Below are positions 9,428 through 41,669 of a stretch of 64,000 nt of DNA, piece by piece. The stretch is from Maribacter sp. (GTDB taxonomy: Bacteria; Bacteroidota; Bacteroidia; Flavobacteriales; Flavobacteriaceae), in the NCBI GenBank assembly GCA_020629285.1, contig JAHDDP010000007.1, positions 62,001 to 126,000 of the forward strand. The letters run 5' to 3'. Within the stretch, counting starts at the first letter, position 1. The number at the start of each line of letters is the position of its first letter. Below the pieces are notes generated by a model. That model ran no database searches. It saw only the letters and a program-made list of their open reading frames with translations, and was not told where the DNA came from. The position numbers were made by a program, and so were the translations under genes.

Positions 9428-9430
9428 TAG

Positions 9431-9577: not shown

Positions 9578-9610
9578 ACCTTATATTTATTTTTTTACTA
9601 AAACGCACAT

Positions 9611-10214: not shown

Positions 10215-10216
10215 TC

Positions 10217-10816: not shown

Positions 10817-10819
10817 TTT

Positions 10820-11449: not shown

Positions 11450-11607
11450 ACATCAAATATAATATATCGTATACGATTTAAATCGTTTTACGCATAACTT
11501 TTATAATCAAGTTCTATTTCATCGAAAATACAGCGTTAATATGCCTTCTATCAATACTATAATCCATTATTGAACGTTCCAAGAGTTCAACCTACAAATA
11601 AGAAAAA

Positions 11608-12393: not shown

Positions 12394-12411
12394 AACAATA
12401 ATTTTAAAAGA

Positions 12412-12446
12412 AAAAAAAAGGATAAGGCCTACAGGTTTTATCCTTT
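12412..12446 (+). terminator. Terminator after the orphan lipoprotein
   Basis: GGATAA (from 12420) pairs with TTATCC (ending 12442), and internal GCCT/AGGT pairs extend the stem. The hairpin is flanked by an A-run before and TTTTTCTTTTTT after it, about 20 bp past the lipoprotein stop. Confidence 0.7.
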
Positions 12447-12474
12447 TTCTTTTTTAGACTTAATCTCCGTCTAA

Positions 12475-13375
12475 TTTAGCCGTGTCTATTCAAAATACAA
12501 TTTGAAATAGAAGCCCATATTTAGATTCATATAAATTAGTGGGTATGATTTCTACTCGCAACCCATTGAATACGTTTGCTGTTTTTAAAATTGGAAAAAA
12601 ATGTATTTCTTCTAGATTCTGTCGGTGTGTTTCTGATAAAAGTTCTCATGATGTTCGTTTTTTTGTCGGTGATTAGCCGAATTGATTAATGATTTAATAT
12701 TGAATTAGGTATTCTTAGTGTGTATGATGTCTAGACGCCACCCATTGTATTCGTTTACTGTTTTTAAAATTGGTAAAAAATGAATTTCTTCTAGATTCTG
12801 TTGGTGTGTTTCTGATAAGTGTTGTCATGATGTTCGTTTTTAGTTTCGGTGATTAGCCGTGTGATTGATGAATGATTGATGTTTTACTAATGAGTGTGAT
12901 TTCTTGATGCTACCCATTGTATTCTTTTGCTGTTTTTAAAACTTGAAAAGAAAGTGTTTCTTCTTGTTTCTGTCGGTGTGTTTCTAATGAAAGTTCTCAT
13001 GATTTTTGTTTTTAGTTTCGGTGATTAGCCGAGTGATTGATGAATGATTAATTAAAGTATTATTAATGAGTATGATTTCTTGATGCTACCCATTGTACTC
13101 TTTTACTGTTTTTAAAACTTGAAAAGAAAGTGTTTCTTCTTGTTTCTGTCGGTGTGTTTCTGATGAAAGTTCTCATGATGTTCGTTTTTAGTTTCGGTGA
13201 TTAGCCGAGTGATTGATGAATGATTAATTAAGGTATTATTAATGAGTGTGATTTCTTGATGCTACCCATTTTACACTTTTGCTGTTTTTAAAACTTGAAA
13301 AGAAAGTGTTTCTTCTTGTTTCTGTCGGTGTGTTTCTGATGAAAGTTCTCATGATATTTGATTTTTAATTGATGA
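12475..13375. repeat. Tandem array of about five ~175-bp repeats
   Basis: The anchor CCCATT recurs at 12562, 12741, 12913, 13089 and 13265, giving periods of 179, 172, 176 and 176 bp. Each unit has the same order of blocks: an AATGA/GTGTGATTTCT block, the CCCATT anchor, CTGTTTTTAAAA, TTTCTTCT, TCTGTCGGTGTGTTTCT, GTTCTCATGAT and CGGTGATTAGCCG. Units 3-5 are nearly identical over their cores. Unit 1 is the most divergent and unit 5 breaks down at its right end. No frame stays open across units on either strand. Function is unknown. Confidence 0.9.
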
Positions 13376-13857
13376 TTAATAATTTTCTTATACTTACAAG
13401 ACGACGAATGTTTTATATTGTTACAGTACTATGCATAAAAAGGTACTATTTTTAACAAATTAATTTTATATTTTTCATTCAAAATACTAATAATCAGTAT
13501 TTTATGTTTTTAATCAAAAAATTAATTTTAACAATTCTTTTTCAATTTTCCTTTATTCTATAAATAATGGAATAGGAGAATGGGCAAAAAACCTTAAAAT
13601 ATTATTATATAATGTGATGACATATTCATTTTAAAAGGGAGTAGCTTAAAACTTTCATAGTTTGAGTCCGTATAATGCTAAATAATTGAAATACAAATCA
13701 TATCTTTGTAAAACATTAAAGGGATGCACATAATTCTTGCAATGACCTTACAGCAAACGGAGTAATAGTTTACTCAAAAACTTACCGTTCGTTATACACG
13801 TCAACACGTATTTCAATTCCTTTATTGCAAAATCTATTATTATCATTAAAATTACGA
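13376..13857. other. AT-rich gene-free stretch and leader of the cold-shock-domain gene
   Basis: No supportable gene lies between the repeat array and the cold-shock-domain start. A 19-codon frame at 13504-13563 reads like a lone signal peptide and then stops. A TATCTTTG promoter element at 13701-13708 implies a long untranslated leader of roughly 140-150 bases for the gene starting at 13858. Long leaders are common for cold-shock genes, but a regulatory fold is not demonstrated here. Confidence 0.5.
13701..13708 (+). promoter_or_regulatory. Candidate -7 element TATCTTTG for the cold-shock-domain gene
   Basis: This is a perfect match to the Bacteroidota housekeeping -7 consensus TAnnTTTG, ~150 bp upstream of the start at 13858. 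I do not see a well-spaced TTTG/TTG -33 element, so the call rests on the -7 box alone. Confidence 0.4.
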
Positions 13858-14316
13858 ATGGCAAAATCGCAACAAACATTTAATAAAACTGAAAAAGAAA
13901 AAAAGCGCTTAAAGAAGCGTGAAGAAAAGAAGAAAAAAATGCTTGCTCGTAAAGCAGCTGCAAAAGAAAATGGTACTTCTGGTATTCCATTGGCTTATGT
14001 AGATTTCAATGGAAACTTGGTGGACACTCCGCCAGATCCAGCAATGAAAGTAGAAATTGAAGCTGAAGATATCGTTTTAGGTATTCCTAAGAAAGAAGAA
14101 GGTGATGTTGAAGAATTTGATCCGGTAAGAAACGGAAAGGTTTCTTTCTTTGATACTACTAAAGGCTTTGGTTTTATCATAGACGCAGAGAACAATGAAA
14201 AATACTTTGTTCATGTTAGTGGTCTTATTGATGAAATTATGGAAAACGACAAAGTTTCTTACGAGTTAGAAAAAGGCATGAAAGGCATGAACGCCGTTCG
14301 TGTTAAGAAGATTTAG
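13858..14316 (+). CDS. Cold-shock-domain protein with basic N-terminal extension
   Basis: I start this 152-residue protein at the ATG at 13858, because the family begins MAKSQQTFNKTEKEKK and the 11 upstream in-frame residues are not protein-like. The N-terminus is extremely lysine-rich (KEKKRLKKREEKKKKM), residues ~12-90 are a linker, and residues ~94-152 are a cold-shock domain with RNP1 KGFGFI and RNP2 YFVHVS. It should bind single-stranded RNA or DNA and act as an RNA chaperone. The basic tail probably adds nucleic-acid or ribosome affinity. A second, short cold-shock protein is encoded at 28086. Confidence 0.9.
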   Translation: MAKSQQTFNKTEKEKKRLKKREEKKKKMLARKAAAKENGTSGIPLAYVDFNGNLVDTPPDPAMKVEIEAEDIVLGIPKKEEGDVEEFDPVRNGKVSFFDTTKGFGFIIDAENNEKYFVHVSGLIDEIMENDKVSYELEKGMKGMNAVRVKKI

Positions 14317-14331
14317 TTCTAAATATTTTTA

Positions 14332-15279
14332 ATGGTGAAAATGCAACGCAACACCGTTCTGGTAGTATTGTCATTTTTTGCCATTTATTTCATTTGGGGA
14401 TCAACCTATTTATGGAATAAAATTGCAGTAACCGAATTACCTGCCTTTATGTTGGCAGGTATTCGTTTTGTTACAGCAGGTAGTCTAATTTTTATCATAT
14501 CTAAGATATTAGGCTTCTCCCTTAAAATTACCAAACAGCAATTCAAGAATACTATTCTTGCAGGTTTTCTATTCCTAACATTTGGGAACGGAGTAGTTGT
14601 ATGGGCGCTAAAATTTGTAGACAGCGGCTTTGCTGCATTAGAAGTTTCTGCACAGCCATTGGTTGTTCTGCTAATGATGCGGATTTTACAAGGCAAGAAA
14701 ATACAACCTATGTCTGTTATTGGAGTAATTTTCGGTATCACAGGAATATTTTTGTTGGTCAGCCAGAAAGAAATTATTGCTCAAGAAGGTGCTATTTTAG
14801 GGATGGTATTGATTTTTATCTGTATGCTAAGCTGGTCTTACGGTAGTTTATTTGTTGGTAAGGCAGATTTACCTAAAAATTTCTTTGTAAATACTGGTTA
14901 TCAAATGCTTACAAGCGGAATTTCATTATTAATCATCAGTGCTTTATTTGGTGAAGAATGGATATCTCCTGCTTACTGGAGCACTCCGGTTATTACATCC
15001 ATGTTGCTACTAATTATTTTTGGCAGTATACTTACATTTACTGCTTTCAATTATTTACTTCGTATCGTTTCCCCTGAAAAAGTTGCTACATCTACCTATG
15101 TGAACCCAATAGTAGCCATGACTTTAGGATGGTATTTTTTAAATGAAAATATCACATTACAGTCTGTAATTGCGTCTACAATTTTGCTTACCGGAGTATA
15201 TTTTATTAACACAAAAAAGAGCCTCACTATTTTATCTCGCTTTTCTGGAAAACGAATTCCTAAGAAAGCGGAAGAATAA
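14332..15279 (+). CDS. EamA/DMT-superfamily exporter
   Basis: This 315-residue membrane protein has ten predicted helices arranged as two EamA repeats. The first repeat begins FFAIYFIWGSTYLWNKIA and the second begins after IFICMLSWSYGSLFVGKA. Such proteins export amino acids, drugs or metabolites; the substrate is unknown. The start is 14332 (ATG), and a second ATG at 14341 is equally usable. It lies 15 bp after the cold-shock-domain gene and may be co-transcribed. Its 3' end overlaps the convergent pseudouridine synthase by 20 bp. Confidence 0.88.
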   Translation: MVKMQRNTVLVVLSFFAIYFIWGSTYLWNKIAVTELPAFMLAGIRFVTAGSLIFIISKILGFSLKITKQQFKNTILAGFLFLTFGNGVVVWALKFVDSGFAALEVSAQPLVVLLMMRILQGKKIQPMSVIGVIFGITGIFLLVSQKEIIAQEGAILGMVLIFICMLSWSYGSLFVGKADLPKNFFVNTGYQMLTSGISLLIISALFGEEWISPAYWSTPVITSMLLLIIFGSILTFTAFNYLLRIVSPEKVATSTYVNPIVAMTLGWYFLNENITLQSVIASTILLTGVYFINTKKSLTILSRFSGKRIPKKAEE

Positions 15280-28333: not shown

Positions 28334-29089
28334 TTATCGCTCATTTTTAAGTCTATCAAAATCTTTCTCTAATTGAAATAACTTTTCTTCTATATTAAAA
28401 TTGGTCTCTGGCAATCTATGATAAAAAACGTATCGTACACGCCACATTTCTTTAATCTCCTTTAACTGGAGTACTACATCATCCACATTTTTATGATCTG
28501 CCCGTAACACAAAACTATCATTGGTAATAAACAATCTCCTTAAAATGATTTCCTTTTCCGTTACCGTAAAAACCAAGGTGCCATTGTTAAGTTTTGAATA
28601 TACCGTTGGCGGCACCCATTCCCCAATAGCAATATCCTTAGGGAACATTCCTAATTCATTTCTGCTCATTTCTAAATTTTGAACGGTGTATGCCCTAAAT
28701 TTTTTATCTGGATTTATAGGTAATGATAAAAAAGGGAGGTCTTGTATGTAAGAATCCTTGCTGAAATACTTTATATAATCGGTCTGATTCACAGCTGTAA
28801 TACAAGGTACTTTAATAAAGAATTCTTGCTCACCAAGGTCTTGCTCAACAGTTAAATTACCTTTGAACTTTAATAAATTATTTACCGTTAATTCGGTTGT
28901 TAGCAAGTCATCTATAGGAATGCTAAAATAATTAGCAATTTTTATCAATGTTTCTAGTTTTGGCTCACTTCTCCCTTCTTCATAAGCACCCAAAGTACCT
29001 CTTTTTAAGTCGAATAGCTCTGCAAATGCTTGTTGACTAAGACTTTTTAAACTTCTTATTTTCCTAATATTTTTACCGAAATACGACAT
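28334..29089 (-). CDS. XRE-family regulator with S24-like C-terminal domain
   Basis: This 251-residue regulator has an N-terminal helix-turn-helix (residues ~6-62, with LSQQAFAELFDLKRGTLGAY). Its C-terminal part resembles the LexA/CI peptidase S24 fold (FRAYTVQNLEMS, then KDIAIGEWV). In active S24 domains the first of these carries a serine in a D-S-M motif. Here it reads L-E-M, so self-cleavage is unlikely. It is divergent from the PspA-flotillin-ATPase operon across a 244-bp gap that contains repeated and inverted sequences. It is the best candidate for that operon's regulator, which is inference from position. Confidence 0.85.
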   Translation of the reverse strand: MSYFGKNIRKIRSLKSLSQQAFAELFDLKRGTLGAYEEGRSEPKLETLIKIANYFSIPIDDLLTTELTVNNLLKFKGNLTVEQDLGEQEFFIKVPCITAVNQTDYIKYFSKDSYIQDLPFLSLPINPDKKFRAYTVQNLEMSRNELGMFPKDIAIGEWVPPTVYSKLNNGTLVFTVTEKEIILRRLFITNDSFVLRADHKNVDDVVLQLKEIKEMWRVRYVFYHRLPETNFNIEEKLFQLEKDFDRLKNER

Positions 29090-29132
29090 TTTTTTGCTAA
29101 TTATATTTGCAAGTGATAAATATTTAATTATA

Positions 29133-29200
29133 TTTGTCTAACAAAATTAGCAATAATTATTTGAATTGCTATTATTTTGAGCTATTAATTTTTGTCTAAC
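29133..29200. promoter_or_regulatory. Candidate operators between XRE regulator and PspA operon
   Basis: TTTGTCTAAC occurs twice as a direct repeat, at 29133-29142 and 29191-29200. Between the copies, TAGCAAT (29148-29154) and ATTGCTA (29165-29171) form an inverted repeat with a 10-bp spacer. Together they cover the divergent promoter region of the regulator and the five-gene operon. Confidence 0.45.
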
Positions 29201-29333
29201 CAATTTTAAAAACTCAATATCATGTTCGTCGTACTTATTTACATTTTAGCGCTCCTCTTATCAATTTAGGATTACGCACCAATATTATTTTGTATTATTG
29301 AATTTAAGAATCCACTTACAAAAACCAACACAA

Positions 29334-29729
29334 ATGAAAAACCACTTTAATATAACCAGAGATTACCTGCTTGAACTGAATTTTAATATTGTAAAAGAGA
29401 ATAGGGCAGACGGAATTATGGTTGTTGAGAAAGAAGATTCTGGAATAAAAAATTTGATTTTGGGAGTATCGCCTCCAATTTTGATTATGGAACAGTTTAT
29501 ATTTTCCGTTCACAATCAATCTGAAAAAATCTTTAAAAGCTTACTTCAGAAGAATAGAGATATCATTCACGGCGCTTTTGTTTTAGATGAAACTGCAAAC
29601 CGCGTCATATTCAGGGACACCTTACAAATTGAGAATATGGATTTGAACGAGTTTGAAGCCAGTCTTAATTCATTAAGCTTACTTATGAGTGAATACTCGG
29701 ACAAAATCATTGAATTTTCTAAATATTAA
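29334..29729 (+). CDS. YbjN/Tir-chaperone-like protein
   Basis: I start this 131-residue cytoplasmic protein at the ATG at 29334 (MKNHFNITRDYLLELNFN). The layout of alternating strands and helices (ENRADGIMVVEKE, KNLILGVSPPILIMEQFIF, KNRDIIHGAFVLDE) matches the YbjN/type III secretion chaperone-like fold, a small adaptor domain. It opens the PspA-flotillin-ATPase operon, with PspA starting 13 bp downstream. In related neighbourhoods similar proteins are annotated as a Tir chaperone. A role as adaptor for one of the large partners is inferred from context. Confidence 0.75.
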   Translation: MKNHFNITRDYLLELNFNIVKENRADGIMVVEKEDSGIKNLILGVSPPILIMEQFIFSVHNQSEKIFKSLLQKNRDIIHGAFVLDETANRVIFRDTLQIENMDLNEFEASLNSLSLLMSEYSDKIIEFSKY

Positions 29730-29742
29730 AAACAATAAAATC

Positions 29743-30456
29743 ATGAATATATTTAAAAGACTATTTAAAATAGGAGAGGCTGAAACCAATTCAGCAATTG
29801 ATAATATGGAAGATCCTATTAAGATGACCGAACAAGGCATTAGGGATATGAAGCTAGACTTGGAAAAAAGTTTAGAGGCTCTTGCACAAGTTAAAGCTCT
29901 TGCCATACGTTCTAAGAACGATCAAGATGTTTATAAAAATAAAGCAAAAGAGTATCAAGATAAAGCCATTATAATTTTAAAGAAGGCAAATAGCAAAGAA
30001 ATGGACGCTGCTGAAGCGGACAGACTTGCTAAAGAAGCTTTAATGCAGAAAGAAACCAATGAAAAGCAATTAGAAGCTACAAAAACCGAAACTGAAAAAT
30101 TTGAAGCTAATGTGAGTCAAATGCAAGGTAATGTAGAAGCTTTAAAAGCAAATATAGGTAATTGGGAGAATGAGCTTAAAACACTTAAAGCACGTGTAAA
30201 GGTTAGTAATGCAACCAAAAACCTAAACAAGCAAATGGCTGAATTGGATAGCACCGGTACTGTTTCTATGCTTGAAAGAATGAAAGAGAAAATTGCACAA
30301 GAAGAAGCCTTGGCAGAAGCTTATGGTGATATCGCAAATTCGAGTAAATCTATAGATGAAGAACTTGACAAAGCTGCCGATACTACTGAAGCCGCTGCAG
30401 ATGACGAACTTCAAAAACTTAAAGAACAACTAGGGTTTAACAAATCCAAAAAATAA
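29743..30456 (+). CDS. pspA: PspA/IM30-family protein
   Basis: This 237-residue protein starts at the ATG at 29743 (MNIFKRLFKIGEAETN), which gives the usual amphipathic N-terminal helix. The rest is almost entirely coiled coil, with the family's AIDNMEDPIKMTEQGIRDM opening and long heptad stretches to residue ~220. PspA/IM30 proteins are ESCRT-III relatives that polymerise on membranes and stabilise them under stress. Here it is second in a five-gene operon with an NfeD-like protein and a flotillin, partners known to occur with PspA. Confidence 0.92.
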   Translation: MNIFKRLFKIGEAETNSAIDNMEDPIKMTEQGIRDMKLDLEKSLEALAQVKALAIRSKNDQDVYKNKAKEYQDKAIIILKKANSKEMDAAEADRLAKEALMQKETNEKQLEATKTETEKFEANVSQMQGNVEALKANIGNWENELKTLKARVKVSNATKNLNKQMAELDSTGTVSMLERMKEKIAQEEALAEAYGDIANSSKSIDEELDKAADTTEAAADDELQKLKEQLGFNKSKK

Positions 30457-30460
30457 AAAT

Positions 30461-31171
30461 TTGAATCAACTAATAGACATATTATTTTCTGAGGTAAATA
30501 TTACGTTAACCTTATTATTGATACTCCTTCTGGTGTATTGGATCATAACCATGATAGGTGGTCTTGATTTTGACCTAGATGTTGATGTCGATATAGATGT
30601 AGACGCCGATGTAGATATAGACGCTGGTATTGAAGGTGGTAATCTTGATTTTGAAGATATTTCTAACACTGAAGTCAACCAGGAAGATGTCATAGGAAAG
30701 AGACGTAGACCACTAAAATGGTGGCAAATATTCCTTATCTATTTCAACTTTGTAGGACTGCCTTTTATGTTCACGTTTACCTGCTGGATATTTGTTTGGT
30801 GGTTGATTACAACTTTAGCGACCACATTGACGTTTACCTATGACAATTATATAGGATTCATTATTATGATCGCTTCGCTTTATCCAGCATTATTCGTCAA
30901 TAAATTATTTACCACTCCGTTCAAGGGCTTTTTCAAGCAACTGAATAAAGATGGTGATGCTCCTGTTGATTTTTTGGGCAGGCAAGCCACTTTGCTATCT
31001 AATATTAGCGAAGATAAAATGGGCAATGCAGAAGTAAAAGCAGATGGTAATAGTCATTCTATCTATGTAAAATCTTTAGATCGTAAACCGTTAACCTACG
31101 GTAGTTCGGTTTTAATCATCAAACGATCTGCGGATCACACACACTTTTTAGTACAATCTTATAACCAATAA
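30461..31171 (+). CDS. NfeD/OB-fold-like membrane protein, TTG start
   Basis: This 236-residue protein starts with TTG at 30461, 4 bp after the PspA stop. The next in-frame ATG would remove the first membrane helix, so TTG is preferred. The order is: helix (residues ~8-32); an acidic Asp/Val repeat (DFDLDVDVDIDVDADVD, residues ~36-56); the segment KRRRPLKWWQIFLIYFNFVG; two more helices (~90-150); and a C-terminal OB-like domain (DFLGRQATLLSN, then SIYVKSLDRK). It resembles the NfeD partner of flotillins. The alternating acidic tract is unusual and may bind cations. Confidence 0.82.
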   Translation: MNQLIDILFSEVNITLTLLLILLLVYWIITMIGGLDFDLDVDVDIDVDADVDIDAGIEGGNLDFEDISNTEVNQEDVIGKRRRPLKWWQIFLIYFNFVGLPFMFTFTCWIFVWWLITTLATTLTFTYDNYIGFIIMIASLYPALFVNKLFTTPFKGFFKQLNKDGDAPVDFLGRQATLLSNISEDKMGNAEVKADGNSHSIYVKSLDRKPLTYGSSVLIIKRSADHTHFLVQSYNQ

Positions 31172-31185
31172 AACTTAAATCATTT

Positions 31186-33252
31186 ATGGAATCCATCTTT
31201 TCAATTATCGGTATAGGTTTGGGGGTAATCCTCTTCCTTATCATTGTTTATTTTGCAATCATTGCAATGTTCTACAAAAAAGTTCATCAAGGTCAAGCCT
31301 TGGTAAGAACTGGATTTGGAGGAACTAAAGTAGCTACGGATAAAGGTCTGTATGTAGTGCCAGTATTTCATAGAGTTGAAGTAATGGATATTTCAGTAAA
31401 GAAAATTCAAATTGAAAGATTGGCGACAGAAGGTCTTATCTGTAAGGATAATATGCGTGCGGATATTAAAGTTGCATTCTTCGTTAGGGTAAATAATGAA
31501 GTAGACCTTATTAAAAAAGTTGCTCAGACCATTGGTGTCCAAAGAGCTTCTAGACAAGAAACACTTGAAGAGCTTTTTGAAGCCAAGTTTTCCGAAGCCT
31601 TAAAAACCGTTGGTAAAAAGTTCGATTTTATTCAATTATATGAAGCGCGTAGAGAGTTTAGAGATGAGATTGTTGATATTATTGGAATTGACCTAAACGG
31701 CTATACCCTAGAAGATTGTGCCATAGATTATCTGGAGCAAACTGCCGTAGCGCATTTGAAAGCAGATAATATTCTTGATGCAGAAGGTATCAAGAAGATT
31801 AATGACCTTACTGCTGCTCAAAATGTGAAATCGAACCTTATTAAGCGTGACGAGGAGAAAACCATTCGTAAACAAGACGTAGAAGCTCGTGAAGCTATAC
31901 TAGAGCTAGACAAGCAGTTAGCGGAAAAAGAAGAACAACAAAAAAGAGAAATCGCGAACATAAAATCTCGCGAAGAGGCAGAAACTTTAAAAGTTTCCGA
32001 AGAAGAGCGTTTAAAGTCGGAAACTGCTCGTATTGCTACCCAAGAAAAAGTAAAAGTTGCTGAAGAGAATATGGAGCGTCAAATTATTGTCGCTTTAAAA
32101 AATAAGCAGCGTACAGATGCCGTAGAGACTGAAAGAGTAGAAAAGGACAGACTTTTAGAGGCTACGGAAAGAGAAAGAGTAGTTACGCTGGCACAGATTG
32201 AAAAAGAAAAAGTTGTTGAAGTAGAAAAAAAGAATATACAAGATGTTATTCGTGATCGTGTTACCCTTGAAAAAGGAGTAGTGGAAGAGCAAGAGAACAT
32301 GAAAGATATTGAAGCTTTCAAAACTGCCGATCGTGAGAAACAAGTAAAGATTACTATTGCAGAAGCAAATGCTCAAGAAGATTTAATTAAAACAATTAAA
32401 GCAGCAGAGGCTCAAAAAGAGGCTGCAAAACAAAAAGCGGAAGAAATCAATATTGAAGCATTGGCTCATAAAGAGGCTAGTGAGAAAGAGGCTGAAGCAC
32501 GTAAAATTTTAGCGGAAGCACAAGCGAAGGAGGAAGCAACCGTGGGTATGTCTGAAGCTCAAGTTATGCATGCAAAAGCAGATGCCTTTGAACGTGAAGG
32601 AATAGTACAAGCTATCATCATTGAGAAGAAAGCCAAAGCTGAAGCAGTTGGTATCGAAGCAAAAGCAGAAGCTAAGCGTAAAGATGGATTAGCAGAGGCT
32701 GATGTTATTAAAGAAAAAGCCATGGCAGATGCTGCTGGCATAGAAGAGAAGGCTAATGCAATGAAGAAATTAGATGGTGTTGGTAAAGAACACGAAGAAT
32801 TTAAACTGCGTTTAGACAAAGAATTACAAGTAGATCTTGCCCACATTAATATCCAGAAAGATATTGCCGATGCACAAGCACAGGTTATTGGTGATGCATT
32901 AAAAGCTGCCAAGATTGATATTGTTGGTGGTGAGACCATGTTCTTTGATCAAATTATCGGTCAAATAACCAAAGGTAAGGGCTATGATAGATTGGTTGAA
33001 AACAGTACCAACATTCAAGATGTAAAAGATGCTATTTTAGGCAGCGATGATGTCAAAGGGAATCTTTTGGAAAAGGTAAAAGAATTCGCAGATAAATATG
33101 GTATCTCTACTGAAGACCTTAAAAACGTAACTATAGCAAATTTACTGATGGACTTAAAATCAAAGTCTAACGATAGTGAAGAGCAAACGCTGTTTAGCAA
33201 TCTATTTAACCTTGCAAAAGGGTTAGGTATGGGCGATAAAAAGTTGAAATAG
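31186..33252 (+). CDS. Flotillin/YqiK-like SPFH-domain protein
   Basis: This 688-residue protein has a single N-terminal membrane helix (residues ~5-30). An SPFH/band 7 domain follows (about residues 35-210, with HQGQALVRTGFGGTKV and KVAFFVRVN), then a very long Ala/Glu/Lys coiled coil (residues ~215-600). The C-terminal tail may mediate oligomerisation. Flotillins organise lipid domains and scaffold membrane complexes. It is the fourth gene of the operon and follows the NfeD-like protein by 14 bp, a pairing known from other bacteria. The coiled-coil length matches YqiK rather than short FloA proteins. Confidence 0.9.
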   Translation: MESIFSIIGIGLGVILFLIIVYFAIIAMFYKKVHQGQALVRTGFGGTKVATDKGLYVVPVFHRVEVMDISVKKIQIERLATEGLICKDNMRADIKVAFFVRVNNEVDLIKKVAQTIGVQRASRQETLEELFEAKFSEALKTVGKKFDFIQLYEARREFRDEIVDIIGIDLNGYTLEDCAIDYLEQTAVAHLKADNILDAEGIKKINDLTAAQNVKSNLIKRDEEKTIRKQDVEAREAILELDKQLAEKEEQQKREIANIKSREEAETLKVSEEERLKSETARIATQEKVKVAEENMERQIIVALKNKQRTDAVETERVEKDRLLEATERERVVTLAQIEKEKVVEVEKKNIQDVIRDRVTLEKGVVEEQENMKDIEAFKTADREKQVKITIAEANAQEDLIKTIKAAEAQKEAAKQKAEEINIEALAHKEASEKEAEARKILAEAQAKEEATVGMSEAQVMHAKADAFEREGIVQAIIIEKKAKAEAVGIEAKAEAKRKDGLAEADVIKEKAMADAAGIEEKANAMKKLDGVGKEHEEFKLRLDKELQVDLAHINIQKDIADAQAQVIGDALKAAKIDIVGGETMFFDQIIGQITKGKGYDRLVENSTNIQDVKDAILGSDDVKGNLLEKVKEFADKYGISTEDLKNVTIANLLMDLKSKSNDSEEQTLFSNLFNLAKGLGMGDKKLK

Positions 33253-33314
33253 ACGCTTAACACTTAGAGTTTTAAAGTAATTTATTAATGTAGTACTAAA
33301 GCCTAGTTATTTTT

Positions 33315-36300
33315 ATGGCAGAAGAATCCCGAACAGACAAAACGGAAGAACATATTTTAGATGGTGGTACTTATGATGTGATTAAAAACCGACTGCAAAA
33401 GCAGAAGGAATTGTTACAGAGTAAGCTAATTAATCTAAACGATGATAGAAAAACCGTTTTTGGATCATTAGAAACTAAACTTATTGCGAATGATAGAATC
33501 AATACAGAGAACAATTGTATAGCAAGAGATATTGTTTCTTTTGGTGACACTTGCCTGTTCGGGTATAATGTTCATTTTGGTCTTAGAACCGAAATAAATA
33601 TTAAAGATGTTTTTAGCAGTTACACTTTTACAGACAACAGTTTTAAAGCTGCTGATCTTAATCTGCTAGAAGATGCGACCTTTAAAACAGATTTTACCAA
33701 TTTATATAAATACTATAGAAATACGATATTTTCCAACTTTGCCGTAATTGGAAATTATCTACATATGGTTTTTCAGCTAAGTGAAAGTCCTACGGATATT
33801 AAAACCTTTAAATGGTTAGTGGTAGACAATTCGCTAAAATACATTGATAACCGTAGCGAACATGAATACAAATTTCCTGTTCAACAAGAGTTTAAATGGC
33901 AAGAGGCTACGAGAGATATGCAACGTTATGGAGAACATCCTCATGTGTCTATAAAAGACCGGGTGTTCGTAGAAACCATTGGCGGAGATCTTACCATTAA
34001 AATTGAGGACAATACTGCTGAAGGAAAGGGTATTTTAGATGAACCCGTAGAATATGTTGACCAAACTTTAGATGACGGTCAATATCGTTTTGGAGATTTA
34101 GGCAACCTTTTAATTTTAGAAATAAAGCCATTTCAAGAAGCTGCCCGTTATTTTGTTTTCAATGACAAAATGCGAGAGGTTCAAAAAATTGATTCTGTTA
34201 AAGATGCCTGCATTTTACTGCCAGATGATCAAGGAATCATCTTTCCAACAGGGTATTATTTGCAAACGGGAGAGTATCACATTTTTGATAATGCTATCCC
34301 TAATGTAAAATTTCAAGAACGTATTATTTCTCCTAATGGAGAAGATTTTTTGTATGTTTTCTATTCTGCTGCCGAGGGGTTATATAACCTTATGTCTTAT
34401 AATATCATAAGTCAGGTTATTAAGACACCCATAATCTGTAATGGATTTACGATTTTAGAAAACGGTGAGCTTTGTTATTTTAAAACAGAGCAAGAGCAGA
34501 CAAAACACCATGTAGTTCAAATTTGGCAAACACCATACTTAAAAGGTGATTACGTGCCTTCTCAGCATGAAGACACATTACTTTATAAAATAGGAAACAA
34601 AGATATTGTAAAGGCTATGGCAGAAGTCAATGGCTTAATTACATTGTTGAATAAAAACGACAACTACGCCGGACTATATAGTGATATTGCAAAGTTTTCG
34701 AAAGATATTTTAGATGCGTATTATTGGTTACCAGAGCCAGATACACATCAATTAAACGAGCCTATTGAAGAAATCAACAAAGCATCTAACGCTGCTATTG
34801 ATGAGTTTGAAAAAGTGGTTCAACTCCGTAAAAATGCTCAAAATCAATCTAAATTAATTCAACAGAATTCTGAGGAGTTATTTAATAAAATCAAAAGTAC
34901 CTCATTTAAAAGTATTGATGAGTTTGTTGCATTACTTACCAGGTTGCGATCTTTAAGAGGCGAAGCTATTTCGCTTAAAGAAGTACGATATATTGATTTA
35001 GAATATATTGAGGTCCTGGAAGAACAAATAGGGGAGCAGACAAAAAAGATATCTGAACGTTGTGTTCAGTTTCTTTTAAACCCGAATGCATTACAACCAT
35101 ACCATGACGCTTTAAAAGATAAAAAAGAATTTATAGCTACAGTTGAAAAGGTAATTGTAGCTAAAGAGAAGGAAGAAGAAATTAATGAGATCAGTACGCA
35201 ACTAGAAATGCTGATCGATATTGTTTCTAATCTAGAAATTGAAGATACAGCCCATTCTACTAAGATAATCGATGATATTTCATTGATTTTCTCAACTATA
35301 AATGAACTTAAGGCAGCTTTAAAAAACAAAAGAAATTCTCTTGGTATATCTGAAGCCAAGGCAGAGTTTGCTGCACAATTGAAATTGATCGATCAGAGTA
35401 TCATCAATTACCTAGATATGGCATCTACACCAGAAAAGTGTGATGAATATCAAACTAAAACATCTATTCAATTAGAGGAACTAGAGGGCAAATTCACCGA
35501 TTTCGAAGAGTTTATCGAAACTATTATTGAAAAGAGAGAAGAGGTTTATGCTGCTTTTGATGCTAGAAAGAACTCTTTAATTGAAAAACGGAATAAAAAA
35601 TCTAGCGCATTAGCCAATGCATCAGCCAGGATATTAAAAGGGGTACAGAAAAAGGCACAGAGTTTTAATTCTGCCGTAGAAATCAACGGATACTTTGCGT
35701 CAGATTTAATGATCAATAAGCTGCGTGATATTATTTCTCAACTGCAAGAGCTTGATGATAGTGGTAAAGCTGAAGAGATTGAAACCCAATTGAAAACGGC
35801 TAGGGAAGATGCTCTTAGAAAGTTAAAGGATAAGCTTGATCTTTATGAAGATGGCGATAGTGTTATCAGATTGGGTAAACACAAATTCGGAGTCAACAAG
35901 CAACAGTTAGACTTAACGATTGTTTTTCATGATAACGAACTCAATTATCATTTAACAGGAACCGATTTTTACAAAGTACTGAACAATGAAGAATTTGTTA
36001 AGAATAGGCACTTATGGAATCAGGAATATGTTTCTGAAACCGATGATATTTATCGTGCTGCATATTTAGCTTACAAAATATTCTCAAAATTCACCGAAGA
36101 CGATTTGCTTCCGCTAAGCGAAGAAGAACTTTTAAAACTTGTTCAAGAACAAAGTAGAAACGACTATTCTGAAGGCTATATAAAAGGAGTTCATGATGTT
36201 GATGCTTCAAGAATACTGAAGCTTTTAGTACATAAACACCATGAACTAGATTTACTTACCTACCGACCAGAAATTCGTGGGTATGCCCAATTTTTCTGGT

Positions 36301-38204
36301 ATGATTTGGATAAAGATGTTAAAGCCGTATTAGATAAAGGTTTAAAAGCTGCAGGAGAGGTTTTACAATATTTTCCTGAATCTAAAGAATACGCTTCTAT
36401 CATTGAGGGATTAAAAAAGAAAATAGAAGTCTTTTCTGAAGAAACGAAACTTTTTGACGTACTATTAAGCGAAGATATTGCTGATTATTTGTTTGAAGAA
36501 CTAAAATCAGATTCTGAATTTGTATATAGTGGCTTTGCTATTCAATTAAAAGATGAATTTTTAAAATTACTTAAATCTCAAAATGCAGATTTAAAGTTTA
36601 AGAAAAGTGTTGAAGAAGCTTCTAAATTTTCATCTAAAGTTCGTTTGGTGAAACAATGGGTAGGTGCATTTTTAAAATCTAAAAAAGATGTCGATGCTAA
36701 TCTTAATTTAAACAGATATGAAAATGAAATTGTAGGAGCCATTCTGTTTAGAGATGAGTCTGCTTCTAAAATCAAGGCTGTTTCGCCAAAAGAAAGTTTA
36801 AAAGAGCTGAGAGGTTCTCATGAAACTATTGTTGAAGGAGTTTATTCGTTCAATTATCATGATTTCATTTCTAGAATGAGCTTATTTGTGTCCGATGAAG
36901 TTCCGGCATTTTTAAATTTTAAAAAGACAAAACACGAAATAACCGAAAAACTAAAAATTGATTTAAAGTTAGAGGAATTTAAACCAAGAGTGCTTACGTC
37001 TTTCGTACGTAATAAATTAATTGATGAAGTATATCTTCCAATTTTCGGTAACAATTTAGCGAAACAGCTAGGTACGGTAGGTGCAAACAAACGTACCGAT
37101 AGAATGGGTATGTTGCTTTTGATATCGCCACCAGGTTATGGTAAAACCACCTTGATGGAATATATAGCAAACCGACTTGGTTTAATTTTCGTTAAAATAA
37201 ATGGACCGGCAATTGGTCATGAGGTTACCAATGTAGATCCAGCCTCTGCAAAAAACAGTGCTGCACGCGAAGAACTTAAAAAGCTGAATCTTGCTTTTGA
37301 AATGGGGAATAATGTCATGCTTTATATTGATGATATTCAGCATTGTAATCCAGAATTTTTACAAAAGTTCATTTCCCTTTCAGATGGTACTCGTAAGATA
37401 GAAGGTGTATACGAAGGTCAGCCTAAAACATACGATTTACGTGGTAAAAAATTCTGCGTAATAATGGCAGGTAACCCATATACGGAAAGCGGAGAGAAAT
37501 TTCAGATTCCAGATATGTTAGCCAACCGTGCGGATATTTATAACCTTGGTGATATTATTGGCGAAACCGAACATTTATTTCGATTGAGTTTGGTAGAAAA
37601 TTCGCTTACAGCAAATCCTATTTTACAGCAATTGGCAAGTAAAGAATTTGATGATGTGTATACATTGGTAGAACAAATTGAATCTAAATCTGATGAGGGT
37701 CAATTAATTGGCAACCATTCTAGTCAAGAAGTTGAAGAATATAAAAAGGTTCTCGAAAAAGTATTGCGGGTAAGAGATGTTTTGTTAAAAGTAAATGCAA
37801 CGTACATTAAAAGTGCCGCTATGCAAGATGAATACCGTACAGAACCTTCTTTTAAACTTCAAGGCTCTTATAGGGATATGAATAAGTTAGTTGCTCAGAT
37901 TGTACCTATAATGAACGAGCGGGAATTGAACACGCTTTTACGTTCACATTATGAGAATGAAGCGCAAACTTTAACTGGTTCTGCAGAAGCAAACTTGTTA
38001 AAATACAATGAGCTGATTGGTAATCTTACTACGGAAGAAGATGCTCGTTGGAGTGCCATAAAGGAGCAATTTGTAAAGAACAATAAATTAAAAGGATTTG
38101 GTAATGCCAATGAGATGGCTCAAGTACTTTCGCAGATGATGGAATTCTCTGATAATCTTGCCGGTATCAAATCTGTTCTTGAAAAGGGACTTAAAAATGA
38201 TTAA
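33315..38204 (+). CDS. Giant DUF3686-type AAA ATPase (DNA-repair-ATPase-like annotation)
   Basis: This is a 1629-residue cytoplasmic protein. The N-terminal ~500 residues look beta-rich (GQYRFGDLGNLLILEIKPF; DDQGIIFPTGYYL), and residues ~500-900 form coiled coils. The C-terminal AAA+ module has Walker A SPPGYGKT at 1271-1278, Walker B MLYIDDIQH with D1339-D1340, sensor-1 asparagine N1387 in MAGNPYTE, and a likely arginine finger in LANRADIYN. The first glycine of Walker A is serine, and the usual second acidic residue of Walker B is Asp rather than Glu. It matches the family often named DNA repair ATPase, although no nuclease or DNA-binding domain is seen. In this operon it probably remodels PspA or flotillin assemblies. 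Confidence 0.85.
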   Translation: MAEESRTDKTEEHILDGGTYDVIKNRLQKQKELLQSKLINLNDDRKTVFGSLETKLIANDRINTENNCIARDIVSFGDTCLFGYNVHFGLRTEINIKDVFSSYTFTDNSFKAADLNLLEDATFKTDFTNLYKYYRNTIFSNFAVIGNYLHMVFQLSESPTDIKTFKWLVVDNSLKYIDNRSEHEYKFPVQQEFKWQEATRDMQRYGEHPHVSIKDRVFVETIGGDLTIKIEDNTAEGKGILDEPVEYVDQTLDDGQYRFGDLGNLLILEIKPFQEAARYFVFNDKMREVQKIDSVKDACILLPDDQGIIFPTGYYLQTGEYHIFDNAIPNVKFQERIISPNGEDFLYVFYSAAEGLYNLMSYNIISQVIKTPIICNGFTILENGELCYFKTEQEQTKHHVVQIWQTPYLKGDYVPSQHEDTLLYKIGNKDIVKAMAEVNGLITLLNKNDNYAGLYSDIAKFSKDILDAYYWLPEPDTHQLNEPIEEINKASNAAIDEFEKVVQLRKNAQNQSKLIQQNSEELFNKIKSTSFKSIDEFVALLTRLRSLRGEAISLKEVRYIDLEYIEVLEEQIGEQTKKISERCVQFLLNPNALQPYHDALKDKKEFIATVEKVIVAKEKEEEINEISTQLEMLIDIVSNLEIEDTAHSTKIIDDISLIFSTINELKAALKNKRNSLGISEAKAEFAAQLKLIDQSIINYLDMASTPEKCDEYQTKTSIQLEELEGKFTDFEEFIETIIEKREEVYAAFDARKNSLIEKRNKKSSALANASARILKGVQKKAQSFNSAVEINGYFASDLMINKLRDIISQLQELDDSGKAEEIETQLKTAREDALRKLKDKLDLYEDGDSVIRLGKHKFGVNKQQLDLTIVFHDNELNYHLTGTDFYKVLNNEEFVKNRHLWNQEYVSETDDIYRAAYLAYKIFSKFTEDDLLPLSEEELLKLVQEQSRNDYSEGYIKGVHDVDASRILKLLVHKHHELDLLTYRPEIRGYAQFFWYDLDKDVKAVLDKGLKAAGEVLQYFPESKEYASIIEGLKKKIEVFSEETKLFDVLLSEDIADYLFEELKSDSEFVYSGFAIQLKDEFLKLLKSQNADLKFKKSVEEASKFSSKVRLVKQWVGAFLKSKKDVDANLNLNRYENEIVGAILFRDESASKIKAVSPKESLKELRGSHETIVEGVYSFNYHDFISRMSLFVSDEVPAFLNFKKTKHEITEKLKIDLKLEEFKPRVLTSFVRNKLIDEVYLPIFGNNLAKQLGTVGANKRTDRMGMLLLISPPGYGKTTLMEYIANRLGLIFVKINGPAIGHEVTNVDPASAKNSAAREELKKLNLAFEMGNNVMLYIDDIQHCNPEFLQKFISLSDGTRKIEGVYEGQPKTYDLRGKKFCVIMAGNPYTESGEKFQIPDMLANRADIYNLGDIIGETEHLFRLSLVENSLTANPILQQLASKEFDDVYTLVEQIESKSDEGQLIGNHSSQEVEEYKKVLEKVLRVRDVLLKVNATYIKSAAMQDEYRTEPSFKLQGSYRDMNKLVAQIVPIMNERELNTLLRSHYENEAQTLTGSAEANLLKYNELIGNLTTEEDARWSAIKEQFVKNNKLKGFGNANEMAQVLSQMMEFSDNLAGIKSVLEKGLKND

Positions 38205-38301
38205 GGTTTAAATATATAAGATAGTTTTTCTTTTATTACTGAAATTCAAGCTTTCACGTCAAAATAAAGATGTAGTTTTGCACCCGCAAAAAAGCTGCAT
38301 T

Positions 38302-38748
38302 ATGAAGCGTATTAATGAATATAAGAAACTTTTCGGGGTTGAAAAAGAAATTGAACTTAAAGCTCTTAAGTCTACCTATAGAAAATTGGTAAAAGAATGG
38401 CATCCAGACAAATTCCAAGAGGGTGACGAGAAAAGAGAAGAAGCTGAAGTTCAAAGCCGTCGTATTATTGACGGATACCACTTTTTAGTAAGTATCGCCC
38501 CTGAAACCAAAGAAGCTAATAAAGAAGTATACAACGAGTCTATTAACTCTGGCGTTGCCGATTTCCAGCATAATGGTTTAGTATTAGAAGTTACTTTTGT
38601 TGATGGTGCTACGTATGAGTATTTTGGTGTAACTAAACCTATTTTTCAGAAAATGATCAATGCTAACAAATTGAACAGATTCGCTAAAAGAACAATTTTT
38701 CCAAATTATTTGTACAGAAAATCGAAACGTGACCTTCAAGAGGCATAA
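38302..38748 (+). CDS. J-domain/KTSC-domain fusion protein
   Basis: I start this 148-residue protein at the ATG at 38302. The N-terminus is a short DnaJ-like domain (residues ~3-60) with the HPD signature in EWHPDKFQ that stimulates Hsp70 ATPase. The C-terminal ~65 residues match a KTSC domain (ATYEYFGVTKPIFQKMINA, ending in YLYRK), a small module of unknown role. It is 97 bp past the giant ATPase and just before a DEAD helicase. It may recruit DnaK to RNA or to a specific client. The pairing of these two domains is compact and neat. Confidence 0.85.
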   Translation: MKRINEYKKLFGVEKEIELKALKSTYRKLVKEWHPDKFQEGDEKREEAEVQSRRIIDGYHFLVSIAPETKEANKEVYNESINSGVADFQHNGLVLEVTFVDGATYEYFGVTKPIFQKMINANKLNRFAKRTIFPNYLYRKSKRDLQEA

Positions 38749-40115: not shown

Positions 40116-41669
40116 ATGATGAAGGATAAACAACACGAAAACCAAACTGAGATCGATTTAACAGAGATTGAAAGTTGTATTGAAATTTTAAATAGATTGG
40201 TAAACGATACCAATCAGATATTTGAAATTCCAGAAGAGAGACGCATTGCCTTAATTAAAGTAGCTGGCCAATTGTCTCGCCCTAGTAAACAAGAGTTTGC
40301 GAAAAGGGTAAAAGATGCCAAAAGAAACGCTAAAAGAAAGCAAGCCGTTCGTGACAAGCATGCACGTAAAGAAACTGGTATTCGTAGTGCCCGTGAAGCT
40401 CATGTATTTGTCGCTCCTAAATTATTACCCGCTGCTGAACTGGCAAGCAAAGATTTACCAGAATTGACCACTCCACGTAATTGTTACGTTTGTAAAACAG
40501 AGTTCACTAAACTTCATCACTTTTATGATACCATGTGTAGCGATTGTGGCGATTTCAATTATGCGAAAAGATTCCAAAATGCCAATGTAAAAGGTCAAGT
40601 TGCAGTTATTACCGGATCTCGTTTAAAAATTGGTTATCATATTACCTTAATGTTACTACGTGGTGGCGCAACCGTTATTGCAACAACACGTTTTCCCGTA
40701 GATTCCGCGCTTCGCTTTTCTAAGGAAGAAGATTTTATGGAATGGGGGCATAGACTGAAAATTCATGGTTTGGATTTACGTCATATACCTAGTGTTGAAA
40801 TATTCTGCAATTTTATTGAGCAGCAATATGATAAGCTAGATATTTTAATTAATAATGCAGCACAGACTGTACGTAGACCGGCTGGTTTTTACCACCATCT
40901 TATGGAAAATGAAGAGAAAGAAATCTCTTCACTACCTAAGTTTGCCCAAATGGTATTAAGTGATCATGAAAGTTGCTTACAAGAATTAAAAGGATTTAGT
41001 AAACAAGCATCACCAAATCAAAACATGCCGGTTACTTGGCACGGACCTGAACCTGGTATTGGTATACGAGCTTCTGCAAAGCTGTCTCAGATTCCGTATA
41101 GTTTTGATAATGCATTAGTAGCCCAAGAAGTTTTCCCAACGGGTGAATTAGATGCCGATTTACAACAAGTAGATTTGCGTAAAACAAATAGCTGGAGACT
41201 AAAGTTAGGCGAGATTGAAACTACTGAAATGATTGAAGTTCAGCTGGTTAATTCCGTAGCGCCTTTTGTACTTTGCAATCGCTTGGCAGAGCTGATGAAG
41301 AAAGAGAACACGGGACAGAAACATATTATTAACGTAACGGCGATGGAAGGAAAATTTCACCGTTTCTTTAAGGAATCTCGTCACCCACATACCAATATGG
41401 CGAAGGCTGCCTTGAACATGTTAACACATACTGCTGCTGGGGAATTAGCAAAAGACGGAATCTTCATGAATGCAGTCGATACGGGTTGGGTAACTGACGA
41501 AGACCCTGCAGAATTGGCTAAGAAGAAGCAAGAAGTACACGATTTTCAACCACCCTTAGATATTGTTGATGGTGCTGCTAGAGTAATGGATCCACTTTTT
41601 GACGGTATCAATACGGGTAAACATTGGTGTGGTAAATTTTTAAAGGATTACTTCCCAATTGATTGGTAA
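40116..41669 (+). CDS. Zinc-ribbon-containing short-chain dehydrogenase-like protein
   Basis: This 517-residue protein starts at one of two adjacent ATGs (40116 or 40119). Residues ~1-120 are charged and partly helical. A zinc ribbon follows: C123-x2-C126-x14-C141-x2-C144. From ~155 comes a Rossmann fold with [11 protein letters not shown] and ILINNAAQT. At the usual YxxxK site the sequence reads HTNMAKAA, so K430 is retained but T426 stands where tyrosine is expected, and the usual serine region reads VTAMEG. It may be an unusual reductase or an NAD(P)-binding scaffold. It follows the helicase by 34 bp. Substrate unknown. Confidence 0.85.

Follow-up and report, generated by a model that had tools for sequence, protein, structure and literature searches.

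A giant DUF3686 AAA+ ATPase that travels with a flotillin subfamily and, in Bacteroidota, with a separable PspA-CesT module

A six-gene locus in a 64,000-nucleotide stretch of a Maribacter sp. contig (hereafter, the window) brings together genes for an NfeD-like protein, a flotillin, and a giant AAA+ ATPase of the DUF3686 family with those for PspA, a CesT/Tir-like chaperone, and a divergently transcribed XRE regulator. The gene neighborhoods compared here indicate that the steady partner of the ATPase is the flotillin/NfeD pair rather than PspA, which makes the locus a testable case for a motor acting on flotillin assemblies. It is probable, in our judgment, that the ATPase is a MoxR-like motor dedicated to the flotillin-NfeD assembly and that PspA and CesT form a regulated stress module. 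A motor linked to a single flotillin subfamily, together with a 95-residue candidate contact, would render the role and turnover of bacterial flotillin microdomains testable. It redirects the tempting, but probably incomplete, analogy with Vps4 extended to PspA, and it argues against the unsupported "DNA repair" label of the DUF3686 ATPase.

Five of the genes run in the same direction with spacers of 13, 4, 14, and 62 bp by their open reading frame coordinates (Table 1), in agreement with an earlier note on this DNA, which had described five tightly packed genes with gaps of 4 to 62 bp and had identified PspA/IM30, an NfeD-like protein, a flotillin, and a 1629-residue DUF3686 ATPase among their products. 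The CesT/Tir-like gene, the first of the five, adjoins the PspA gene (13 bp apart); of the "Tir-chaperone/YbjN-like" label previously given to its product, the Tir part is borne out by the CesT_Tir_1 match, and no YbjN match was found at E ≤ 0.01. The nearest solved structures to the PspA protein, the only PspA found in the searched genome, are those of PspA and Vipp1; this family is akin to ESCRT-III. The NfeD-like protein matches no Pfam family at E ≤ 0.01, and its identity is based on an iterated profile that matches a Hymenobacter protein annotated as DUF1449 (E = 1e-66), a label also carried by E. coli YqiJ, on its three hydrophobic segments, and on its position before the flotillin gene. 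The flotillin has a single, N-terminal hydrophobic segment (residues 7 to 25) and a long coiled-coil-like middle part. Since the complete six-gene arrangement recurs in all 9 further genomes that are positive for DUF3686 in a sample of 395 from Bacteroidota, it is not a chance assembly. A KTSC-DnaJ gene (38278-38748) was considered as an extra member and rejected; its profile matches 6 of 90 sources, namely the window and five Maribacter/Zobellia loci.

Table 1. Features of the Maribacter locus (positions are those of the window)
Feature	Position	Strand	Details
XRE (Cro/C1 HTH) regulator, S24-like C-terminal part	28334-29089	-	251 aa; HTH_3, E 1e-12
Divergent intergenic region	29090-29333		Motif TTAGCAA/TTGCTAA; candidate XRE operator
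TTAGCAA/TTGCTAA sites	29094-29100, 29147-29153		Shared intergenic motif
Related ATTGCTA	29165-29171		Intergenic region
CesT/Tir-like chaperone	29334-29729	+	131 aa; CesT_Tir_1 (PF22550), E 4.3e-55
PspA/IM30, ESCRT-III-like	29743-30456	+	237 aa; PspA_IM30 (PF04012), E 2.4e-43
YqiJ/NfeD-like membrane protein	30461-31171	+	236 aa, TTG start; DUF1449 kinship
Band-7 (SPFH) flotillin	31186-33252	+	688 aa; Band_7, E 9e-13
Flotillin ATPase-specific C-terminal segment, residues 518-612	32737-33021	+	95 residues
DUF3686 AAA+ ATPase	33315-38204	+	1629 aa; DUF3686 (PF12458), E 2e-176
Walker A SPPGYGKTT, residues 1271-1279	37125-37151	+	K1277 and T1278 kept in 62/62 sequences
Walker B D1339-D1340	37329-37334	+	Both kept in 62/62 sequences
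Pre-sensor-1 beta-hairpin, residues 1361-1374	37395-37436	+	Two strands, predicted model

This type of operon is already in print, and the window locus belongs to a known kind. Ravi et al. 2024 (PMC11237479) describe an operon that combines CesT/Tir-PspA with a band-7/flotillin protein, a YqiJ/YuaF protein, and an AAA+ protein with a propeller and a coiled coil, i.e., the same five gene kinds as in the window, as well as abbreviated operons consisting of flotillin and a YqiJ-like protein, sometimes with the ATPase; they suggest ESCRT-like membrane remodeling, which is close to the idea of the earlier note. The CesT/Tir-PspA adjacency, the propeller and coiled coil of the AAA+ protein, and the three transmembrane segments of the YqiJ/YuaF-like protein all recur in the window, where the flotillin has the transmembrane segment and the Band_7 domain but does not match the Pfam Flot tail. 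The divergent XRE gene, the ATPase-specific flotillin C terminus, the (predicted) MoxR-like AAA+ fold, and the one-to-one pairing are not named in the available part of that paper. In the open-licence PMC literature, no paper was found for DUF3686 or for flotillin combined with "DNA repair ATPase," nothing beyond Ravi et al. for CesT, PspA, AAA, and propeller, and, for MoxR with flotillin, a sole match that by its title deals with Mycobacterium chelonae prophages.

Genes for flotillin and the NfeD-like protein were found upstream of the ATPase gene in 82 of the 83 loci with at least 3 kb of upstream sequence (from a set made up of the best 80 of at least 568 relatives and 9 loci from a phylum sample). 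These loci span Bacteroidota, Planctomycetota, Calditrichota, Verrucomicrobiota, Desulfobacterales, and one further bacterium; in the single exception, the NfeD-flotillin pair is on another contig. The same holds for a plasmid collection, with hosts among Gammaproteobacteria, Actinomycetota, Deinococcota, and Hymenobacter: flotillin accompanies the ATPase in 11 of 11 loci and the NfeD-like protein in 10 (11 of the 12 ATPase records were fetched, the second Proteus record being excluded), and, among the 60 rows listed for 317 plasmid records, the 12 best flotillin matches are exactly the 12 ATPase records. Such neighborhood and co-occurrence data are consistent with, but do not prove, a contact between the ATPase and flotillin.

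Outside the core, no family recurs in more than 8 of the 78 loci read. The steady neighbors are membrane proteins, and the domains found in the ATPase are confined to a propeller, helices, and an AAA+ module, which makes it scarcely credible that DUF3686 proteins are DNA-repair ATPases, as stated in the Pfam family description and in plasmid annotations and as hinted at by weak RuvB matches at the P-loop. Nothing supporting this annotation was found, as the earlier note had also maintained. One cluster of neighbors, from 20 loci, is by its position the flotillin gene read in a shadow frame.

The C termini of the ATPase-linked flotillins are of a kind other than the Pfam Flot tail, which E. coli YqiK carries and which was detected in all three flotillins from ATPase-less records, versus none of the five ATPase-linked flotillins scanned; three of these five match no Pfam family, Band_7 included. 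The window flotillin has no Pfam match to PF15975. Its residues 518 to 612 correspond to 95 alignment positions that are nearly gapless across 35 flotillin sequences (alignment A5 used 32 of them); the tail is strongly diverged in Pseudomonas, Proteus, Vibrio, Halomonas, and Deinococcus (23 to 35% identity to the window). A profile of this segment (A4) picks out 10 of the 395 Bacteroidota genomes, precisely those that have the ATPase. Because the profile was built from ATPase-linked flotillins, this specificity is partly by construction; matches in ATPase-less genomes of the 395-genome sample were nonetheless possible in principle, and none was found. In Planctomycetota, the segment is present in 45 of 343 genomes. 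Among the 44 loci that were fetched afresh (the 45th is in the genome of L086), the ATPase gene lies directly downstream in 42, and in the other two the contig stops 245 and 36 bases further on; this count covers the segment-positive genomes, the other 298 being segment-negative. Comparison of the segment with solved structures yielded weak scattered matches (best E = 0.006), and the full flotillin profile matched only QmcA, chiefly through the coiled coil. The cap position proposed for the segment therefore follows the model of human flotillin, whose cage is reported to have the C terminus at its narrow end (PMC11260169), rather than an alignment.

In addition to DUF3686, Pfam recognizes DUF7902 and AAA (E = 9e-8) in the ATPase; neither Pfam nor a hydrophobic-segment scan revealed a protease domain or a membrane segment. 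The protein was modeled as two halves (pLDDT 87.6 and 84.9), with a predicted N-terminal beta-propeller (approximately residues 51 to 407; best Z score of the fold matches, 9.7), long helices (approximately 422 to 845), a helical middle part, and a C-terminal MoxR-like AAA+ module (approximately 1216 to 1570). Judging by its conserved residues, the active site is intact: the Walker A and B residues listed in Table 1 are kept throughout alignments A2 and A3 (62 of 65 nonredundant sequences, from 81, with L034, L035, and L092 excluded) and also in 11 homologues from the plasmid collection. The predicted hairpin lies after the helix that follows Walker B and before the sensor-1 strand. The "fused" 3321-residue ATPase of L092 is an artifact; its scaffold contains a run of N.

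In the single model available (pTM 0.63), the AAA+ domain is predicted to resemble the MoxR-type ATPases NorQ and CbbQ best. The top ten rows of the structural alignment are all NorQ/CbbQ (Z scores of 14.5 to 16.5, rmsd of 3.2 to 3.8, 225 to 254 residues aligned to chains of about 250), and the single classical-AAA row among the 50 aligned rows listed has a Z score of 11.7, versus 16.5 for the best MoxR type. In the Foldseek order alone, ClpC, RuvB, and ClpB stand above CbbQ (rank 24), and Vps4 has rank 28. Sequence profiles do not settle the clade and speak in part against the MoxR assignment: the MoxR alignment covers 118 columns with a probability of 9.6, below the short P-loop matches to FtsH (34 columns, probability of 94), Lon (32 columns, 91), and a few other AAA proteins (28 columns, 93). 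A Vps4-like classical AAA domain is unsupported by the structural ranking, led by NorQ/CbbQ (the absence of Vps4 from the 50 rows carries no weight), and the Vps4/ESCRT comparison for the ATPase is weakened by this model.

The resemblance to NorQ-NorD, CbbQ-CbbO, and RavA-ViaA may extend to the partner: NorQ is reported to engage a finger and the C terminus of NorD, the latter in contact with the ring (PMC13036017). Systems of this type are described as small ATPases with VWA-domain partners, whereas here the predicted AAA+ module ends a 1629-residue protein, and the annotations of six neighborhoods mention no gene for a VWA protein, which commonly accompanies MoxR. MoxR-type ATPases have been described as chaperones for the maturation of particular complexes (PMC3893208, PMC10585395). 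By this precedent, and with NorQ/CbbQ in the top structural rows, the ATPase could be a general chaperone for membrane or respiratory complexes, with flotillin serving only to position it in a microdomain and not as its substrate. The pairing with a flotillin C terminus speaks against this option, which we regard as unlikely, although a recruiting tail would look alike; the scarcity of recurrent neighbors noted above means that no shared client gene is seen nearby, but a client may be encoded elsewhere.

If the ATPase is indeed dedicated to flotillin, the core machine would consist of the NfeD-like protein, flotillin, and the ATPase. Flotillin subunits would assemble an SPFH cage on the inner membrane, assisted by the NfeD-like protein; the propeller and long helices may recruit the ATPase, a putative MoxR-like remodeling motor, whose AAA+ ring would engage the distinctive C-terminal segment of these flotillins where the cage narrows on its cytoplasmic side. 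By hydrolyzing ATP, the motor could then open, remodel, or disassemble the cage or act on membrane proteins enclosed in it. In E. coli (YqiJ-YqiK) and B. subtilis (YuaF-FloT), too, one operon encodes an NfeD-like protein together with a flotillin (PMC2636767), but neither organism, both used here as controls, has a member of the ATPase family.

FtsH with HflK/C offers a second comparison. FtsH belongs to the classical AAA clade and is a protease anchored in the membrane, and HflK/C reaches into the periplasm, whereas neither a protease domain nor a membrane segment was detected in the window ATPase. The likeness is in the pairing of an AAA+ machine with an SPFH assembly, for which a model has been published (PMC12048511). 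Tentatively, the core may thus represent, besides FtsH-HflK/C, a second kind of SPFH-AAA+ machine found in several phyla: the cage cap would be the dock for a giant MoxR-like motor that opens or dismantles the flotillin cage with ATP, and PspA-CesT would be an optional emergency-repair add-on, with its own repressor, in Bacteroidota.

The core and the PspA-CesT module are separable by their distribution in genomes, with CesT-PspA pairs lacking the core, core loci lacking PspA, and core genomes lacking any detectable PspA. PspA is encoded in the same locus as the ATPase in 57 of the 66 Bacteroidota loci with enough flank, 55 of which have the CesT-PspA-XRE trio, and both PspA and the trio are missing from all 14 such loci elsewhere, where a more sensitive PspA profile changed nothing. 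The genes make up a conserved membrane locus, with the trio seen in Bacteroidota only. Among 44 further Planctomycetota loci, PspA is clear in one (L201, confirmed by the same profile and with two PspA genes beside the core); weak profile matches were obtained in L217 (E = 0.003), which has no Pfam PspA match, and in L216 (E = 0.005), where a coiled-coil protein falls below the Pfam PspA cutoff. Of the 22 genomes in which no PspA gene adjoins that of the ATPase, 9 yielded no PspA in a genome search. Conversely, PspA is present in 164 of 395 Bacteroidota genomes, versus 10 for the ATPase. The joining has occurred a second time on the Pseudomonas plasmid pQBR103, where a YjfI(DUF2170)-PspA pair accompanies the core.

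These counts bear on the proposal of the earlier note, shared by Ravi et al. (PMC11237479), that the ATPase takes apart or reshapes PspA polymers in the manner of Vps4 with ESCRT-III. The frequent adjacency in Bacteroidota, the ESCRT-III-like nature of PspA, the pQBR103 locus, and the paired PspA genes of L201 fit that proposal; the near absence of PspA from loci outside Bacteroidota, its absence from entire core genomes, its abundance in genomes without the ATPase, and the Z scores of the AAA+ module make it improbable. The other substrate named in the earlier note, flotillin, is supported by its almost invariable presence and matching C terminus, and PspA is not supported as a general substrate. 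In this Maribacter, PspA may well be a second client, since the PspA module is present in every one of the 10 ATPase genomes of the Bacteroidota sample. In our reading, the core in Bacteroidota has been joined to a separate module of PspA and a CesT-like chaperone under a putative XRE/S24-like repressor, and PspA would, when the envelope is stressed, seal or stabilize membrane where the core acts.

The XRE gene is found in 55 of the 89 ATPase loci, always together with CesT and PspA, and none of the 15 CesT-PspA loci that lack the core has it. It is divergent in all 56 loci that have it, the window included, and belongs to the six-gene set; the earlier note had described it as facing the operon. 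Its "XRE/S24-like" label holds for the HTH part in the window protein, which itself has no Peptidase_S24 match in Pfam; this domain was recognized in the two orthologues examined (E = 9e-7 and 7e-7). A putative XRE repressor, a patchy distribution (10 of 395 genomes), and presence on large plasmids would also suit an anti-phage defense system. PADLOC has no family for the CesT, PspA, NfeD-like, and flotillin proteins; its matches are limited to the HTH of the regulator and, weakly, to mad8 within the AAA+ domain (E = 3e-4). Among 50,697 phage records, none matches the ATPase; a defense role is accordingly very improbable. The region between the divergent genes contains an over-represented motif: TTAGCAA/TTGCTAA occurs in 34 of 43 nonredundant intergenic regions (5.5 expected) and ATATTAGC in 25 of the 43 (1.0 expected), the 43 being drawn from 56 regions after exclusion of short and similar ones, including that of the window, which is similar to that of L028. 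The motif sites in the window region are likely the operator of the XRE protein.

The six genes, of which the last five are separated by 13, 4, 14, and 62 bp, lie where the earlier note placed them (see the table), and their locus is real and conserved. Of 395 evenly drawn Bacteroidota genomes, 10 encode DUF3686, including that of the window, and the other nine all carry the six genes in the same arrangement, XRE being divergent. The supposed Tir-chaperone/YbjN-like adaptor is of the Tir-chaperone type, with no Pfam match to YbjN. In the window's genome assembly (83% complete), DUF3686 and PspA each occur once, and Band_7 occurs in five genes. Going by excerpts of Ravi et al. 2024 (PMC11237479), where such operons are described, the window locus thus belongs to a kind of gene neighborhood already in print, and the earlier note's idea is close to theirs.

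Genes of the window locus and compared features (domain matches from Pfam)
Sequence	Feature	Coordinates	Strand	Content
Window	XRE	28334-29089	-	HTH_3
Window	CesT/Tir-like	29334-29729		CesT_Tir_1, E 4e-55
Window	PspA	29743-30456		PspA_IM30, E 2e-43
Window	NfeD-like	30461-31171		no Pfam match
Window	Flotillin	31186-33252		Band_7, E 9e-13
Window	ATPase	33315-38204		DUF3686, E 2e-176; DUF7902; C-terminal AAA
Window	KTSC/DnaJ-like, 3' of ATPase	38278-38748		short; DnaJ-like N-terminus, KTSC domain
Window	Short-chain dehydrogenase	40116-41669		517 aa; long N-terminal part, two CxxC motifs, then SDR domain
pQBR103 (L106)	PspA module and core	2001-15205		YjfI-PspA-rhomboid-DUF2491-DUF350-DUF1190-glutathionylspermidine synthase, directly followed by NfeD-like, flotillin, ATPase
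Agrobacterium plasmid (L118)	PspA-flotillin set	3163-6617		PspA, OB-fold protein, Pfam-type flotillin, consecutive; no ATPase
Planctomycete L216	Stretch with the 598-aa protein	7437-10090		598-aa protein: AAA domain of classical type, E 1.5e-16

When each species was represented by a single genome, a scan detected at least 568 relatives, and neighborhoods were compared for the best 80 of these plus nine loci from the Bacteroidota draw. In this set, flotillin and NfeD-like genes precede the ATPase in 82 of the 83 loci that have 3 kb or more upstream, and CesT, PspA, and XRE occur together in 55 of the 66 loci from Bacteroidota that have 6.5 kb or more; two of the 66 have PspA without CesT and XRE, and nine lack all three. 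None of the three was detected in the 14 non-Bacteroidota loci of this set (by record title, Planctomycetota, Calditrichota, Verrucomicrobiota, Desulfobacterales, and one other bacterium), a count that a more sensitive PspA profile left unchanged for PspA. The ATPase records of a plasmid collection (11 of 12 read) encode flotillin in all 11 cases, an NfeD-like protein in 10, and PspA in 2. CesT_Tir_1 occurs in 50 of the 395 Bacteroidota genomes, 25 of them with strong matches (E < 1e-37); ten of these are the ATPase genomes, and the remaining 15 all have PspA beside CesT, with neither the core (NfeD-like, flotillin, ATPase) nor the XRE gene in the 6 to 13 kb fetched. Since core loci occur without CesT, PspA, and XRE, and CesT-PspA loci without the core, the two are separable modules, whose union is marked, among the loci examined, by the XRE gene. 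Three ATPase-less CesT-PspA pairs (L124, L129, and L136) lie 5' of operons that, judged from the first residues of their ORFs only, appear to be of the membrane synthase type, the second group in the excerpts of Ravi et al. (PMC11237479). Among 78 loci surveyed for further neighbor families (23 from the first set lacking the three genes, 44 from Planctomycetota, and 11 from plasmids), no family is shared by more than 8; the one larger cluster, of 20 loci, is by its position a flotillin shadow frame.

The ATPase is paired with a particular form of flotillin. The Pfam Flot tail, present in E. coli YqiK and in one Agrobacterium and one E. coli plasmid flotillin, is missing from all five ATPase-linked flotillins scanned; three of the five have no Pfam match of any kind. 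It is replaced by a nearly gap-free 95-residue segment (residues 518-612 of the window flotillin) that is common to 35 ATPase-linked flotillins, although the gammaproteobacterial and Deinococcus versions are strongly diverged, sharing 23-35% identity with that of the window. When the 317 plasmid records that match flotillin are ranked, the top 12 coincide exactly with the 12 ATPase records; for the other 48, among the matches listed, query coverage is at most 54% and none extends beyond residue 397, where the BLAST alignment of the ATPase-linked Photobacterium flotillin likewise ends. Searches with the segment recovered 10 of 395 Bacteroidota genomes, identical to the 10 ATPase genomes, and 45 of 343 Planctomycetota genomes, all at E < 1e-27. 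In 42 of the 44 planctomycetal loci fetched, the ATPase lies directly 3' on the same strand, and in the two exceptions the contig ends 245 and 36 bases past the flotillin; the NfeD-like gene is present in all 44, and one has clear PspA genes. As the segment profile was derived from ATPase-linked proteins, the telling part is the absence of matches in ATPase-less genomes among the 395 Bacteroidota and in ATPase-less Planctomycetota loci having room for the gene. In Bacteroidota, the ATPase stands alone at a single locus (L071), and there the NfeD-flotillin pair, with the segment, lies on another contig of the same genome (L234), so that both persist though unlinked from the ATPase.

The residues K1277 and T1278 (Walker A), D1339 and D1340 (Walker B), N1387, R1405, and R1520 are invariant across 62 of 62 sequences as well as the 11 aligned plasmid homologs. 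Judged from its sequence, the protein should hydrolyze ATP. Sensor 1 (N1387), sensor 2, and arginine finger are common names for such residues. Two Streptomyces proteins differ at the residue following T1278. Two AlphaFold2 models (pLDDT 87.6 and 84.9; pTM 0.63 each) show a WD40-like beta-propeller, long helices, and an AAA+ module. In this module a beta-hairpin precedes sensor 1; it is mostly missing from one of the two Streptomyces proteins (L114). A hairpin of this kind and a sensor-2 arginine distinguish such ATPases from Vps4. The propeller reaches a best Z of 9.7, slightly above the 7-8 usual for unclear models, and matches several propellers at a Foldseek probability of 1.00. Against 971 chains, the top ten for the AAA+ module are all NorQ/CbbQ of the MoxR type (Z 14.5-16.5; rmsd 3.2-3.8 over 225-254 residues), with dynein motor (Z up to 13.7) and then Clp ATPases (up to 12.4) behind them; the single classical-AAA entry among the alignments listed is a PAN chimera (Z 11.7). 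Foldseek ranking alone leaves the AAA clades unseparated, and profile-profile comparison places FtsH, Lon, and other AAA proteins before MoxR, at the P-loop.

According to excerpts of the respective papers, human flotillin forms a cage with the C-terminus at its narrow end (PMC11260169), HflK/C is the working partner of FtsH (PMC12048511), and NorD is held by NorQ via a finger in the pore and the NorD C-terminus (PMC13036017). Combining the three, we propose that the C-terminal segment of the cognate flotillin would serve as a docking site for the ATPase, which would remodel the flotillin assembly, with PspA-CesT being a putative membrane-repair module added in Bacteroidota. The ATPase-flotillin pairing is observed; their contact, the cage, and the action of the ATPase we infer by analogy. 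Of the two objects suggested in the earlier note, flotillin gains support from its near-constant presence and paired C-terminal segment. PspA as a general object is not supported, being undetected in the 14 non-Bacteroidota loci and (at E ≤ 0.001) in 9 of 22 genomes, of unstated completeness, whose ATPase has no PspA beside it; the named isolates among the nine are Hyunsoonleella pacifica, two Pontibacter, and Rhodopirellula baltica. PspA is found in 164 of the 395 Bacteroidota genomes, thus commonly without the ATPase. It may still be a second client in the window organism, because PspA joins NfeD-flotillin loci elsewhere too, as in the ATPase-bearing loci of pQBR103 and planctomycete L201 and the ATPase-less one of the Agrobacterium plasmid. 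What merits experiment is the dedicated pairing of flotillin and motor.

On plasmid pQBR103, a PspA module has joined the core independently; an Agrobacterium plasmid carries PspA, an OB-fold protein, and flotillin but lacks the ATPase. Four planctomycete loci (L216, L217, L220, and L221) encode a 598-aa protein or a relative of it beside the core; in L216 it lies directly 3' of a coiled-coil protein whose similarity to PspA falls below threshold. This AAA protein is reminiscent of the two-AAA partner of PspA in the excerpts of Ravi et al. (PMC11237479).

Of 43 non-redundant XRE-CesT intergenic regions, 34 contain the 7-mer TTAGCAA/TTGCTAA, against an expectation of 5.5 by first-order resampling, and 25 contain ATATTAGC, against 1.0; these are counts that shared descent inflates. 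The window region has the 7-mer on both strands, as expected of a candidate repressor operator. Both XRE orthologs tested match Peptidase_S24, so relief of the putative repressor by cleavage or ligand is possible.

Downstream of the ATPase, the KTSC/DnaJ-like gene was considered as a further member and placed outside the system, since, among 90 sources, its profile has no match beyond the window itself and five loci of Maribacter/Zobellia. In the short-chain dehydrogenase encoded farther on, the two CxxC motifs look like a zinc site.
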